In this document: positions 2,568-44,591 of the stretch, piece by piece
How positions within the stretch are numbered: position 1 is the stretch's first letter
Layout: the number at the start of each line of letters is the position of its first letter
Assembly (NCBI GenBank): GCA_022841905.1
Contig: JALHQO010000004.1
Location: 124,001 to 188,000 of the forward strand
DNA length: 64,000 nt
DNA from: Hyphomonadaceae bacterium
GTDB lineage: Bacteria > Pseudomonadota > Alphaproteobacteria > Caulobacterales > Aquidulcibacteraceae
Direction of reading: 5' to 3'
Made by a program: the position numbers and the translations under genes
The notes under the pieces: model-generated
Told to the model about the DNA's origin: nothing
The model's database searches: none
The model's input: only the letters and a program-made list of their open reading frames with translations

Positions 2568-2636
2568 TATGGAGCGCGGGCGTCCCCGCCCGCATTTGGG
2601 TCAAGCAGCCAAGTGGGCAGGGACGCCCGCGCTCCA
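2568..2636. repeat. Double-hairpin palindromic repeat, copy 1
   Basis: A perfect 16-base inverted repeat TGGAGCGCGGGCGTCC (2570-2585) pairs with 2621-2636 across a 35-base centre. The left arm continues into an inner hairpin, GCGGGCG-TCCC-CGCCCGC. The first 27 bases are identical to the repeat at 6303. It lies between the convergent ends of rpiA and the SET-domain gene, ending 2 bases before the latter's stop codon. It could work as a transcript-end structure or be a REP/BIME-like non-autonomous element; no transposase is nearby. Confidence 0.85.
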
Positions 2637-2638
2637 GA

Positions 2639-3172
2639 TTAAGCGGCGCGCTTCTTCTTCTTCGCTTTGGTGGCTTTGGTTTTGCTCTTCCCGGCCTTCT
2701 TCGTCGCCATTTTGCGGGCGAGCGCTTTTTTCTTTTTCGCAGGCGGATTGGCGCGTTTGGCTTCGCACTTGGGGCAGGCGCAGATGTCTTTTAGATATTC
2801 TTTGAAATAGTTCTCGCCGTAATCGTAGTTCAGCTCTTCGCCCGGTTTGATTTTGCGCAGCGCGTGAATGAAGACGCGGCCCTTGTGAATGTTGGGCTCA
2901 CAATTGGCGCGGCATGAATGATTGATGTAGCGCGCCGTGTTGTAGCGCGGCGAACCGTTGATGGTTTTCTTGGCGTTGACTTCGAACAGATAGAGCGAGT
3001 TGATTTTGTCTTCTTGGTCCTTCGGCACGACTGGGCCGACATATTCGATGACGCATGCGCCCTTCGGAATTTCGCTGTCGGTAAACAAACCGAGGCCGCT
3101 CTTTGAGCGGCCGACGCGCAATTCAAAATCCCCGGGTACGTAGCTCTTTCGCATGCCTGCTCCACGCTTCAT
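2639..3172 (-). CDS. SET-domain protein-lysine methyltransferase with Lys-rich tail
   Basis: Predicted SAM-dependent protein-lysine methyltransferase. The SET core spans about residues 14-120, with RYINHSC (81-87) and ELNYDYG (113-119) forming the SAM/pseudoknot site. A post-SET zinc cluster is present: C87 plus C131, C133 and C136. Residues 145-177 form a tail with 15 lysines among Ala/Thr/Arg, resembling histone H1-like tails. The start could also be the second Met (3154). Bacterial SET proteins are known in several groups; the substrate here is unknown and the tail may bind DNA or be methylated itself. The gene stands alone and is convergent with rpiA. Confidence 0.85.
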   Translation of the reverse strand: MKRGAGMRKSYVPGDFELRVGRSKSGLGLFTDSEIPKGACVIEYVGPVVPKDQEDKINSLYLFEVNAKKTINGSPRYNTARYINHSCRANCEPNIHKGRVFIHALRKIKPGEELNYDYGENYFKEYLKDICACPKCEAKRANPPAKKKKALARKMATKKAGKSKTKATKAKKKKRAA

Positions 3173-4069: not shown

Positions 4070-4154
4070 GCGCTAAACCGGGGAATCCGGAAATAAGCTG
4101 TGGCAGCGGAGACTTATGGCAAGCCGCAGGTTCACGACCTGCGTACTTTTATCA

Positions 4155-4208
4155 TTAATCGATAAAATCGCTTGCCTTCCGGTCCCGTCCATATCATTTA
4201 TCGATAAA
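4155..4208. promoter_or_regulatory. Paired TTnATCGATAAA palindromes upstream of sppA
   Basis: A perfect 12-base palindrome TTTATCGATAAA occupies 4197-4208, and a near copy TTAATCGATAAA lies at 4155-4166, centre-to-centre 42 bases (four helical turns). Both sit in an unusually AT-rich stretch for this genome, 30-80 bases before the sppA start. The spacing and symmetry suggest a dimeric regulator or promoter elements; the regulator is unknown. Confidence 0.4.
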
Positions 4209-4237
4209 TTCCTCCGCGTACCCCTGGGAGTAGGGCT

Positions 4238-5992
4238 TTGAAGCAGTTTTTGATTACCGTTGGCGGCGTCGTGGTGGGCGGCTTCCTTTTCTTCTTTGTC
4301 GGCTTCTTTTTGCTGATGGGCATGCTGGGCGCAGCCTCGGCGCCGGCGCCGCATCCGTCCCGCATGGTGCTGGCCATCGATTTGCGGGAACCGATGACCG
4401 ACCAGCGGCCGACCAATCCGTTCGCCGCGCTCGGCGGCGAGCCCTCCTTGCTCGATACGCTGAACCGCATCGAAGCAGCGCGCACCGATGATCGCGTGCG
4501 CGGCCTTTATATTCGCGCCAACACGGGCGGCATGCCGGCAGCGCAAGCGGAAGAAATTCGCGCAGCGCTCGCGACCTTCCGCGCTTCCGGCAAGTTCGTG
4601 GTCGCGCACTTGCAGAACGACGGCATCCGCATGGGCATGCCGGGCTACATGGCGATCGCCGATAGCGATGAAGTGTGGTTGCAGGAGTCGAGCGAGTTCA
4701 TGCCGATGGGCCTTTCGGCCGAGGTGACATTCTTCGCCGGCACGCTGCAGCGCTATCACATGCAAGCGCAGTTCGAGACGCGCGAAGATTATAAAACCGC
4801 GGCGGCGACGCTGACGGAACGCACGTTCACGCCAGAGCATCGCGAGTCGATGATGAGCCTGATGGGCGGTCTCTACGACAACATGCTCGCCAACATCGCG
4901 ACCGATCGCGGCATCACGCCGGCTGCGGCGCGTGCGGCGATCGAGGCGACGCCGTTCACCGCACAGCGCGGCGTTGAGCTTCAGCTGGTCGACCGCCTTG
5001 GCCGTCCGGAGGAAGCAGTGCGTGCAGCGCTTGAGCGCGGCGAAGAGGCGGAGCTGGTTGAGATCAGCCATTACAACGCCCCGGCCCATCGCGGCGGACA
5101 AGTGATCGCGGTTGTTCAAGGCGAAGGCGCCATCGTCTCCGGCCCAGAGAGTGGCGACATTTTCGGCGATGACAGCGTGTTCAACAGCGACCGCATCGCC
5201 GAAGCGCTGCTGGAAGCGTCGGAAGACGATGATGTCGCGGCGATCGTGTTCCGCGTGTCGAGCCCGGGCGGTTCGGTTGTGGCGTCGGACCAAATCCTGG
5301 CCGCGCTGCGCACCGCTCAAGAGCGTGGCAAGCGTGTGGTCATTTCGATGGGCGATGTCGCGGCTTCGGGCGGCTACTACGTCTCCGCTTACGCCGATGA
5401 GATCGTCGCTTCGCCCTCGACCATTACCGGTTCGATCGGCGTGCTCGGCGGCAAGCTGATCATTGGCCCGGCGATGGATCATTATCTGTCGACCAACACC
5501 GAGACGATCTCGATGGGCTCGCCGCTGATCAACAGCTTCAGCTCGGAGCGTCCGTTCACGCCGGCCGAACGGGCTGCGTTCGCGGGCTTCATTGATCGCG
5601 CTTACGTGCAGTTTATCGGCCTCGTCGCCGAAGGCCGCGAGATGACGCCGGACCAAGTCCGCGCCATCGCTGGTGGCCGGGTGTGGACGGGTCAGCAAGC
5701 GCTGGAGCGTGGCCTGGTCGATCATCTGGGCGGCTTCCAGGTGGCGGTTTCGCGGGCGCGGGCCTTGGCGGGCATTGAAGACGATGCGCGTGTGACGCTG
5801 CGCTACTATCCGGCGGAGCAAAATCCGTTCGAGGCGTTCGGCCGGTTGTTTGGCGCGTCGTCGGAAAGCGTTGAGGCGCTGGTGCGCTTGAACAGCGTGC
5901 TCTCCGATCCGCGCACGCAGCGGGCGATCGAGGCGCTGCGCGAAGAAGACGTCAATGTGCGCGCGGAAACCGATCGCTTCCACGTGGAATAA
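4238..5992 (+). CDS. sppA: Signal peptide peptidase SppA, long (67K) type
   Basis: Membrane-anchored serine/lysine protease that degrades cleaved signal peptides. One N-terminal transmembrane helix (about 4-30) is followed by two tandem ClpP/crotonase-like S49 domains, as in the 67K form. The candidate catalytic pair is K186 (EDYKTA, first domain) and S377 (AASGGYY, second domain), matching the split-site arrangement of E. coli SppA. The length of 584 fits (E. coli 618). The start is TTG, supported by GGAG seven bases upstream. It is followed by a strong intrinsic terminator. Confidence 0.93.
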   Translation: MKQFLITVGGVVVGGFLFFFVGFFLLMGMLGAASAPAPHPSRMVLAIDLREPMTDQRPTNPFAALGGEPSLLDTLNRIEAARTDDRVRGLYIRANTGGMPAAQAEEIRAALATFRASGKFVVAHLQNDGIRMGMPGYMAIADSDEVWLQESSEFMPMGLSAEVTFFAGTLQRYHMQAQFETREDYKTAAATLTERTFTPEHRESMMSLMGGLYDNMLANIATDRGITPAAARAAIEATPFTAQRGVELQLVDRLGRPEEAVRAALERGEEAELVEISHYNAPAHRGGQVIAVVQGEGAIVSGPESGDIFGDDSVFNSDRIAEALLEASEDDDVAAIVFRVSSPGGSVVASDQILAALRTAQERGKRVVISMGDVAASGGYYVSAYADEIVASPSTITGSIGVLGGKLIIGPAMDHYLSTNTETISMGSPLINSFSSERPFTPAERAAFAGFIDRAYVQFIGLVAEGREMTPDQVRAIAGGRVWTGQQALERGLVDHLGGFQVAVSRARALAGIEDDARVTLRYYPAEQNPFEAFGRLFGASSESVEALVRLNSVLSDPRTQRAIEALREEDVNVRAETDRFHVE

Positions 5993-6014
5993 ACTGAACT
6001 CAAAACACTGACTG

Positions 6015-6050
6015 AACGGCCCTCGCTTCGCGGCGGGGGCCGTTTTGTTT
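6015..6050 (+). terminator. Intrinsic terminator of sppA
   Basis: Arms AACGGCCC and GGGCCGTT form a GC-rich stem with a TTCG-containing loop, followed by TTGTTT. It starts 23 bases after the sppA stop. Its T-run overlaps the stop codon of the convergent gene on the minus strand. Confidence 0.85.
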
Positions 6051-6684
6051 AGCTCGTGTCGACCAAGCGCGGACGTTCGGGCCATGCCTGACAGCACTTT
6101 TCGACGCCCGCGACGCAGAGCGTATCGAAGGCGACATGGCCGACGAGCGCGGCTGCGGTTTTGGGATGCTTAAGCACGGCGTCGGCGGCGCGCGGTCGCG
6201 CATGCAAGCGCGCGGCGAGCCGGCGGGCGTATGGCGCCGGATCGTTGAAAACGCGGATGAGCGCCTCGTAGCGCTCCGCCAGCGGCCATGCGGAGTGGAA
6301 ATTATGGAGCGCGGGCGTCCCCGCCCGCAACACTTGTGGCCGTCCATGCGGGCGAGGACGCCCGCGCTCCATAGTTGGAAAACTCACCCGCCAGTCTTCC
6401 GGCTTATCGTGATCGAAGCCGATGGCGCGGCTTTCGTGTTTGTGCGCCGCGCGATGCGCCGTTCGCGTCGCGCATTTCGGATAAGCCGCCGCTTCGATCA
6501 GCAACAGCTTGCGCATGACCGCTTCGCCGGCGCGCAGCCATTCGCGCAACAGCAGATAGGGCGCCCGCGTCAGCGTGTGCTGGCGCGCGACATCCTCCGG
6601 CGCGCCGAAGAGATTGTAGAGCGTGTGCAAAAACGCTTCAGCGATACGCCAGAGGCTCAAGGGTGCGGAGCGGGGTGTGGACAT
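6049..6684 (-). CDS. Hypothetical protein interrupted in frame by a palindromic repeat
   Basis: A 211-residue protein of unknown function. The N-terminal half is helical (FLHTLYNLFGAPEDV, REWLRAGEAVMRKLLLIEAAAY) and the C-terminal part has SAWPLAERYEALIRVF. Between WRVSF and HSAWPL the 71-base repeat at 6303-6373 is read through in frame, adding roughly 25-30 residues (MERGRPRPHGRP...RAGTPALH) that look foreign to the rest. The gene is convergent with sppA. I recall similar short proteins in Caulobacterales with a variable middle, but name no family. The opposite-strand reading is less protein-like. Confidence 0.6.
   Translation of the reverse strand: MSTPRSAPLSLWRIAEAFLHTLYNLFGAPEDVARQHTLTRAPYLLLREWLRAGEAVMRKLLLIEAAAYPKCATRTAHRAAHKHESRAIGFDHDKPEDWRVSFPTMERGRPRPHGRPQVLRAGTPALHNFHSAWPLAERYEALIRVFNDPAPYARRLAARLHARPRAADAVLKHPKTAAALVGHVAFDTLCVAGVEKCCQAWPERPRLVDTS
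6303..6373. repeat. Double-hairpin palindromic repeat, copy 2 (inside a gene)
   Basis: Perfect 18-base terminal inverted repeats (TATGGAGCGCGGGCGTCC at 6303-6320 and its complement at 6356-6373). Each arm folds again on itself: GCGGGCG-TCCC-CGCCCGC on the left and GCGGGCG-AGGA-CGCCCGC on the right. The first 27 bases equal copy 1 at 2568. It lies wholly inside the open frame of the gene at 6049-6684. Confidence 0.9.
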
Positions 6685-6736
6685 GTGCGCCGAGTATAAG
6701 CGCGGGGCGAGACCGGTCGGATTGGCCGCGATCTAT

Positions 6737-43075: not shown

Positions 43076-43993
43076 TCAAGGCAGGGTAAGACCGATGACG
43101 AGCGGCATTGTGAGGAACGAGAGCAGCGTCGTCGCCGTGATGATGGCCGCGACGAGTTGTGCGTCACCGCCCATTTCGCGAGCCAGCGTGTAGCCGGCGG
43201 CCGCAGTTGGCGTGGCGCCGAGGCCGGCGGCGACAGCGGCGGCAAGCGGGCCCGCGCCGGTCAGCGTGACGGCGGTAAACAGGATCGCGGGCATCAGCAG
43301 CAGCTTGAAGGCCGAGGCGAACGCGACGCGCACGCCGGAGGCGCGCAGCGCCGTGAAGTCGAGGCCGGCGCCGACGCAAATGAGCGCGATCGGCATGGCG
43401 GCGTCGCCAAGCAGATCGAGTGCGCTCGAAAGCGCGCCGAAATCATGGAAGCCGGCGGCGTTGACGGCGAGGCCAACGGCGCAGGCGAGGATGAGCGGGT
43501 TGGCGACGATCTGGTCGAGTACGGCGCGCCAGGACGCGGCGCGTGTGGCGCCCCAACGCGCCAGCACCATGACGCAGACGACATTCATGGTCAGCACAAG
43601 CGGGCCGAAGGCGATGCCGATCAAATCGAGGCCAGTTTGTCCGTAGAGCGGCAGCGCGGCCGCGAGCAGCACGAAACCGTTCCAGCGCAGCGAGCCTTGG
43701 AAGACGCTGGTGAAAGCGGGGCCGTCGGCGCGGAAGATGAGACGCGTCGCCAGCGCTAGCAGGATCGCAGAGAGGACGCCGCCAAGAATGCCGATCAGAA
43801 ACGGCGCCGAGCCTTGCGCGCTGAAATCGGCGCGGGCGGTCAGCGTGAACAGGAACGCCGGGTAGAGCACGAAATAGCCGAAGCGATTGACCGCGCCGAA
43901 GGCTTCAGGCGTCGCGATGCGGCCAGCCCGCGCGGCCCAGCCGATGGCGATCAGAATGAAAACCGGCGCAAGGCCTGCGATGAGGGGGCTCAT
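43076..43993 (-). CDS. AEC (auxin efflux carrier) family transporter
   Basis: 305 residues with about 10 hydrophobic helices in two halves. The start SPLIAGLAPVFILIAIGWAARAG and the broken-helix region TPTAAAGYTLAREMGGD near the C-terminus are typical of AEC/PIN-like permeases, which move carboxylates or similar anions. The substrate is unknown. A large palindromic repeat lies between its start and ruvX. Confidence 0.9.
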   Translation of the reverse strand: MSPLIAGLAPVFILIAIGWAARAGRIATPEAFGAVNRFGYFVLYPAFLFTLTARADFSAQGSAPFLIGILGGVLSAILLALATRLIFRADGPAFTSVFQGSLRWNGFVLLAAALPLYGQTGLDLIGIAFGPLVLTMNVVCVMVLARWGATRAASWRAVLDQIVANPLILACAVGLAVNAAGFHDFGALSSALDLLGDAAMPIALICVGAGLDFTALRASGVRVAFASAFKLLLMPAILFTAVTLTGAGPLAAAVAAGLGATPTAAAGYTLAREMGGDAQLVAAIITATTLLSFLTMPLVIGLTLP

Positions 43994-44008: not shown

Positions 44009-44112
44009 GTCTGGACCGCCGGCGCCCTCGCCGGCACGGCGCCACTGCTACCGACAAACGCCAGCGTGTGTTCAAGCTGCGGTATGCTGGCGAGGGCGCC
44101 GGCGGTCCAGAC
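44009..44112. repeat. Double-hairpin palindromic repeat with 28-base arms
   Basis: The left arm 44009-44036 (GTCTGGACC then GCCGGCG-CCCT-CGCCGGC, A) pairs with the right arm 44085-44112 (TGCTGGCGAGGGCGCC... GGTCCAGAC) with one mismatch. Each arm folds on itself, as in the repeats at 2568, 6303 and 29335. The 48-base centre is not repeated. It fills most of the 127-base gap between the AEC gene and ruvX. Confidence 0.85.
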
Positions 44113-44120
44113 TCGTACGT

Positions 44121-44591
44121 TCACACCCGCCGCTCCTGCATCGCATCCAGCGCGCCTTGGAGCATGTAGGCGGCGGCCATTTTGTCGACCACTTCGCTGC
44201 GGCGTTTGCGGGTGGCGTCGCCTTCGAGGAGCGTGCGCGTCACGGCGGCGGTGGAGAGGCGCTCGTCCCACAGCAGCAGCGGCACGTCGCGCTTGGTGAG
44301 GAGGTTGCGGGCAAAGGCGCGGGCGCTTTGCGCAGAGGGGCCGGATGAGCCGTCCATGTTGAGCGGCAGGCCGATGACGAGACCGGCGCATTGGCGCCCG
44401 TCATAGATTTTGAACAAGGCCTCGGCGTCGACGGCGAATTTCACGCGCGAGATGGTATCGAGCGAGGAGCCGATCATGCGGGTCAGATCGCTAATCGCGA
44501 TGCCGATCCTTTTTTCGCCCGGATCGACCCCGAGGATCGCGGCGCGCGCTGGCAGGGCGGCGGCGAATTCGGGGAGGTCGAGCATGGGCAT
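44121..44591 (-). CDS. ruvX: RuvX/YqgF Holliday junction resolvase-like nuclease
   Basis: RNase H-fold protein of 156 residues, linked in E. coli to 16S rRNA 5'-end processing and in others to junction resolution. Motifs: ILGVDPGEKRIGIAISD (first catalytic Asp, D23), VIGLPLNMDGSSG and LLLWDERLSTAAV. The start may be the second Met (44585). It is divergent from the lipoprotein and gatC genes, a neighbourhood commonly seen in alphaproteobacteria. Confidence 0.92.
   Translation of the reverse strand: MPMLDLPEFAAALPARAAILGVDPGEKRIGIAISDLTRMIGSSLDTISRVKFAVDAEALFKIYDGRQCAGLVIGLPLNMDGSSGPSAQSARAFARNLLTKRDVPLLLWDERLSTAAVTRTLLEGDATRKRRSEVVDKMAAAYMLQGALDAMQERRV

Follow-up and report, generated by a model that had tools for sequence, protein, structure and literature searches.

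A loop in one bacterial protein family appears to have been colonised many times, by several types of palindromic repeat. The window analysed here is a 64,000-nucleotide (nt) stretch of a Hyphomonadaceae bacterium (contig JALHQO010000004.1, positions 124,001 to 188,000; assembly GCA_022841905.1), and the element in question is a 71-nt palindrome at 6303–6373, inside a minus-strand open reading frame (ORF) for a 211-residue protein. The loop segment of this host protein seems a recurring home for mobile-looking palindromes. The explanation that we favour, and regard as likely, is that a palindrome resembling a REPIN (a pair of inverted repetitive extragenic palindromic, or REP, units) was inserted in frame in a tolerant loop and translated, and that the loop has been recolonised repeatedly. 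An earlier note on this DNA had considered one insert only, a scope that the comparison of relatives corrects.

The element has two inverted TATGGAGCGCGGGCGTCC arms and a short loop; we call its sequence family A. Arm comparison bears out the coordinates and perfect 18-base inverted ends described in the earlier note: 6303–6320 (TATGGAGCGCGGGCGTCC) and 6356–6373 are exact reverse complements. Longer arms of 30 nt (6300–6329 and 6347–6376) are complementary at 93%. The element lies inside the minus-strand ORF at 6049–6684 and is read through in frame, again as first described, corresponding to residues ~104–128 (TMERGRPRPHGRPQVLRAGTPALHN); no strand is assigned to the palindrome itself. Three sites in the window (2570–2636, 6303–6373, and 44009–44112) have perfect inverted repeats of at least 16 nt within 80 nt; 20 first-order Markov sequences of equal length gave none.

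The host coding sequence (6052–6684, minus strand; stop codon at 6049–6051) belongs to a multi-copy, mainly genus-restricted family, as judged from the ORF, homologs, and predicted structure. Ortholog alignment and codon changes delimit two conserved parts on the minus strand: an N-terminal part up to WRVSF (residue 102; 6379–6684) and a C-terminal part from FHSAWPLAERYEALIRVFNDP (6052–6300). A single-sequence search with the host protein found matches in 16 of 31 genomes, and a profile search found the family in 25 of 30 genus genomes, often as several dispersed copies; both counts include the window's own genome. A narrower profile, run against 80 genomes sampled from the order, matched six. 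Four of these belong to the genus and one to the same family; the sixth match is very weak. This narrower profile missed a fifth genus genome, G005, in which the broader one had found copies. The 31 named host-family loci all come from metagenome-assembled genomes labelled Hyphomonadaceae, Caulobacteraceae, Alphaproteobacteria, or Proteobacteria; one is Terricaulis.

Comparison with the sister genome G001 is the most direct guide to constraint. Its ortholog, L022, judged as such from near-identical flanks, shares 96.7% protein identity with the window gene (L021) when the loop is left out. Outside the loop, differences at codon positions 1, 2, and 3 number 3, 4, and 18; over the 81 codons downstream of it, from SAWPL, they number 0, 0, and 10, the pattern expected if translation passes the insert. 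Nonsynonymous and synonymous divergence (dN/dS, by the NG86 method) in the parts flanking the loop was 0.019/0.135 for this pair and 0.033/0.278 and 0.026/0.242 for two other ortholog pairs, a ratio of ~0.11–0.14. The host gene is genuine, on the sequence evidence of its presence in those 25 genus genomes and the low dN/dS of its flanks.

That the ORF is spurious and the palindrome merely intergenic is scarcely credible. A plus-strand ORF of 187 residues (6136–6699) also spans the element, and the window's protein has no match in Pfam or NCBIfam. Against this, the multi-copy family is conserved at the protein level, change is biased to third positions on both sides of the insert, and the predicted fold is confident. 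Relatives were searched with the minus-strand frame only; family matches and codon-position bias identify it as the conserved frame over the element. Among 27 family members, an NCBIfam match to uroporphyrinogen-III synthase (E 0.002, one member) and four Pfam matches (E 0.058–0.099, each in one or two members) were distrusted.

An AlphaFold2 model built from 27 sequences has a mean predicted local distance difference test score (pLDDT) of 86.9, and is helical with a long coil. This predicted coil spans residues 66–123, with one three-residue turn inside; ten-residue pLDDT means over residues 101–130 are 76, 56, and 68. The insert falls largely in a low-confidence coil of the predicted structure. 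A Foldseek search of the model against the PDB gave a single match (E 7.5) and no similar fold.

Many copies of the gene share CCAATCCGACC upstream of the start (6685–6726 in the window), followed by TATACT-like bases near the ATG; this box suggests that the promoter is conserved and the leader very short. In several genomes, dispersed copies of the host gene are nearly identical (L133–L139 in G005; L119–L122 in G033; L106, L108, and L109 in G041; L050 and L051 in G009), as though the gene itself were spreading.

What lies between the conserved parts differs widely among relatives. The earlier note had proposed aligning orthologs between WRVSF and HSAWPL; in that alignment, the sister ortholog and paralogs lack the window's residues from WRVSF to FHSAWPL or carry other repeats there, while the flanks are under purifying selection. 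The closest pair is instructive. The window gene carries family A, whereas L022 carries a different palindrome, family E, which reads TTGGACCGCCGGCGTCC... and then CGCGCTCCATAATTTCCACT; the latter matches the right end and flank of the window's A element exactly. In L022, E thus appears to have displaced most of an earlier A; the alternative is a former E–A tandem. Two further ortholog pairs differ likewise: L025 and L032 carry D and C, respectively, and L023 and L030 carry an A-type mosaic (A-like left arm, E-like right arm) and D. Different palindromes were therefore found in three of the four pairs compared; the fourth, L026 and L029, could not be scored, since L026 is a broken copy in which an A element survives only as its first bases.

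Eighty family stretches were fetched for a broader survey. One (L060) gave no match; of the other 79, 45 had the motifs at both borders and were scorable, and the remaining 34, which were from distant clades or were cut or broken, were left out. At a tight motif threshold, 27 of the 45 scorable loops carry a repeat (A, 4; A', 2; E, 6; D, 4; B, 5; C, 6), against one of 90 flanking parts used as controls. A loose threshold (28 of 45 loops) was set aside, as it gave nine family matches among those 90 parts. An ungapped inverted-repeat score of at least 14 separated loops from controls only partially (15 of 45 versus 1 of 45; medians 10 versus 9). The arms of A, A', D, and E are related, and B and C are by inspection unrelated to those, which gives three groups among the six types.

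Repeat type does not follow the gene. Placed on a protein tree built without the loop, the repeat labels require 24 changes (minimum 6); shuffled labels average 25.1, and 57 of 200 shuffles were as low. The observed number is close to the shuffled one; repeat type is not inherited with the gene over these distances, and by this sequence comparison the insert is not shared by descent. A few insertions spread among paralogs by gene duplication and gene conversion are very improbable. Such spread could account for family A in L021, L028, and L029, which are related paralogs from the two sister genomes, and for the weak clustering of unoccupied copies (11 changes; 26 of 500 shuffles as low). It fits poorly with the different repeats in orthologs of sister genomes and with the well-supported branches, on which C must have been gained or lost at least 6 times, E at least 5, A and D 4 each, B 3, and A' 2.

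The same data bear on whether the palindrome is kept for a function, either as a regulatory hairpin in the mRNA or through adaptive change of the protein loop. The loop segment is predicted to fold into a very stable hairpin (−65.1 kcal/mol), and palindromes differ in every ortholog pair that could be scored. However, 18 of the 45 scorable loops contain no recognised palindrome, and repeat type is nearly random with respect to gene phylogeny. We consider a function of this kind quite improbable.

Host-family genes hold more elements than their share of the genome predicts. The single-contig genome G032 contains 70 elements by motif search (47 D/E/A', 11 B, and 12 C; of A and A', the search covered the latter), of which five lie in host-family genes; a uniform distribution predicts 0.083 (P 3e-8). 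With only 10% of the genome open to insertion, 0.83 are expected (P 0.0016). In the window's genome (G000), 4 of 32 elements lie in family genes (P 1e-7 if uniform; 8e-4 if a tenth is open), a figure from hand-counted and hand-merged matches, with the family genes rounded to 7 x 650 bases. Some elements in both counts are single-arm matches.

This enrichment invites a further proposal: that the loop DNA is a preferred landing site, for instance through an existing palindrome or a favoured CT-containing single-stranded site, as opposed to random insertion followed by tolerated survival. In favour of such targeting are the presence of three unrelated repeat groups at a single point in this gene family, the nested and mosaic elements (the E element of L022 beside its A scar, and the two unlike arms of L023), and the G032 enrichment over uniform. 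Yet the last of these weakens if tolerance is confined to a tenth of the genome; B and C lack the arm sequence common to A, D, and E, making a single rule for all unlikely; and related repeats also occupy loops or linkers of unrelated proteins, among them ThiC, E2, DnaX, and hydantoinase, as tolerance predicts. Targeting strikes us as rather unlikely. A more far-reaching reading, and an improbable one, is that the loop is a dedicated evolving slot, in which incoming palindromes replace older ones: the family would diversify its loop by domesticating REP-type DNA, its copies serving as landing pads for the repeats of the genus.

Candidate mobilising enzymes are REP-associated tyrosine transposases (RAYTs), whose genes occur in 16 of 30 genus genomes, the window's own not among them. 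Each arm of A, A', D, or E is a small hairpin preceded by GGAG (A and A') or GGAC (D and E), and the arms are set in inverted pairs. As in REPINs, two inverted hairpin arms form one dispersed unit, although some matches are single arms. Five of eight RAYT loci read contain arms of this superfamily: a variant of A (L140), E (L141 and L145), A' (L143), and E' (L146). The types seen beside RAYT genes of the lineage at these loci are thus E, E', A', and the A variant; B, C, D, and exact A were not among them. The C33 RAYT of the sister genome has E' arms on both sides, and one E arm lies near the C113 RAYT. At L141 and L145, the RAYT open frame extends at either end into the E arm beside it (LGPPASSPASS... 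and ...AGEDAGGP).

The dinucleotide CT precedes GGA by 0–2 nt in 64 of 126 distinct arms, against a background of ~14%; the arms are not independent. CT is the cleavage site described for E. coli TnpA-REP (PMC8266576). Judged from CT placement and from the arms at RAYT loci, A', E, and E' are likely to be mobilised by RAYTs. For A and D such mobilisation is plausible, and for B and C it is unproven.

The insertion reading can then be put as a sequence of steps. The element would be a pair of inverted REP-like units of the superfamily TGGA[G/C]CGC[C/G]GGC[G/T]TCC. Mobilised by a RAYT, to judge from the flanking arms, through single-strand cleavage near CT and re-insertion, it would have entered in frame into a flexible loop of a conserved protein. 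The open frame and constrained flanks suggest that it is translated, as ~25 residues, and it may persist because the loop tolerates extra residues. A and unrelated types would have colonised the loop repeatedly, later elements partly replacing earlier ones.

Several observations weigh against this reading. The arm tags are GGAG and GGAC, not the usual GTAG. The window's genome gave no match to Y1_Tnp at E <= 0.001, and so has no detectable RAYT; copies there are probably immobile. Three of the eight RAYT loci lack superfamily arms (two of them, L142 and L144, end at a contig end), L140 has no more than a variant of A, and B and C motifs were found at none of the eight loci read. In the host family, two-fifths of the scorable loops carry no recognised repeat, the final insert residues (124–128) are modelled as a short helix, and two repeat-bearing copies are damaged (L024 by an internal TAG, L025 by an early stop near the C-terminus), such that part of the family may be decaying. 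The reduced enrichment when little of the genome is open counts here too. Finally, translation of the insert is something we infer. The earlier note had made the peptide insert conditional on a functional protein; a conserved and constrained gene supports its condition, and the translation itself stays at that inferred level.

The earlier note had also called for a search for copies inside other genes, and related palindromes were found in genes for ThiC, E2, DnaX, and hydantoinase. Forty regions around A, D, or E copies were examined: 25 in G000, which together with the window take in all the copies found there outside the host family; 14 in G001, covering part of its copies; and one in G032. 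Of their 45 element rows, seven are spanned by a frame with a gene-like codon score (0.34–0.50), six more overlap the edge of a frame scoring 0.28–0.44, and 32 have no frame above 0.07. The score is not sharp: a 674-residue minus-strand ORF in the window (4073–6097), which lies antisense to an S49 peptidase gene (4238–5992), has no Pfam match, and is probably spurious, scores 0.29. Six of the seven spanning frames have Pfam matches.

In the enzyme ThiC, too, one in-frame site carries several repeat types: its loop (L216, L220, L221, L222, and L223) contains E' in G001, a C-like repeat in G009, and a D-like repeat in G010, and is short and free of palindromes in G000 and G032; a sixth genome, G040, supplied a C-terminal piece only. 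In the dehydrogenase E2 linker (L225 and L227–L230), five of six genomes have palindromes. Those of G000, G001, G009, and G010 have CGTCATCCCGG-like arms, and that of G032 is D; the G040 linker has none. One stop falls inside the E2 match in G000, G001, and G009. An E-type palindrome lies in the DnaX linker between domain III and the C-terminal domain in G000 and G001 (L194 and L213), and E' in the hydantoinase A–B linker in G000; for these two genes the copies compared all carry the element. Two cases were not used as evidence: an AMP-binding protein gene (L182), with an N run and a repeated piece beside the element, and a 304-residue frame over an E element (L191), without a Pfam match.

In-frame palindromes are already known as a kind. 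The earlier note had placed them mainly in Rickettsia and Wolbachia, too narrow a range: intragenic GTAG and CGTC REPs are described in many bacteria, mainly as inverted dimers in conserved genes (PMC3733652). More than half of those inserts encode 20–30 residues, flexible linkers or loops are suggested as their sites, and in Xanthomonas recB different REPs occupy about the same site (PMC3733652). The present elements are alike in being short palindromes read within conserved genes and in their loop placement; they differ in their GGAG and GGAC tags, and in that one loop of a paralogous family bears six types, which fall into three unrelated groups and turn over between sister species. Rickettsia palindromic elements (RPEs) also lie in frame in unrelated conserved genes (PMC10969869, PMC2229807), a likeness of placement, the feature compared; here the lineage is another one, and E, E', A', and the A variant are tied to RAYT genes. 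REPINs have hairpin arms behind a conserved tetranucleotide, most often GTAG, in inverted pairs (PMC8266576). The elements described here have a similar arrangement, and arms of their superfamily flank RAYT genes of the genus; they differ in having GGAG or GGAC for GTAG, no RAYT in the window's own genome, and many in-gene copies. In-frame variable segments inside genes are described for E. coli and other species (PMC2884548), and the accessible text of a Hyphomonadaceae genome paper mentions palindromic repeats only as CRISPR (PMC5009972). No report was found of one loop in a paralogous family colonised by several repeat types, in a literature search that left most subscription journals outside.

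Two further palindromes lie in the window, neither with an assigned strand. The second family A copy (2568–2636) is intergenic, as noted earlier, between the end of rpiA (1862–2563) and a convergent SET-domain gene (2639–3172, minus strand). The other, of family E' with GGACCGCCGGCGCCC arms, is also intergenic (44009–44112). Its neighbours we take, from their translations alone, to be an AEC-transporter-like ORF (ending at 43993) and a RuvX-like ORF (44121–44591, minus strand).

Together, these genes amount to a natural replicate experiment on selfish DNA becoming protein: one loop, many paralogs, and several repeat types, with sister species carrying different inserts between flanks that are 93–97% identical in protein. 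They also tie in-frame insertion to a known transposase type encoded in sister genomes. Moreover, the system lets tolerance be tested against targeting for mobile palindromes that enter genes.
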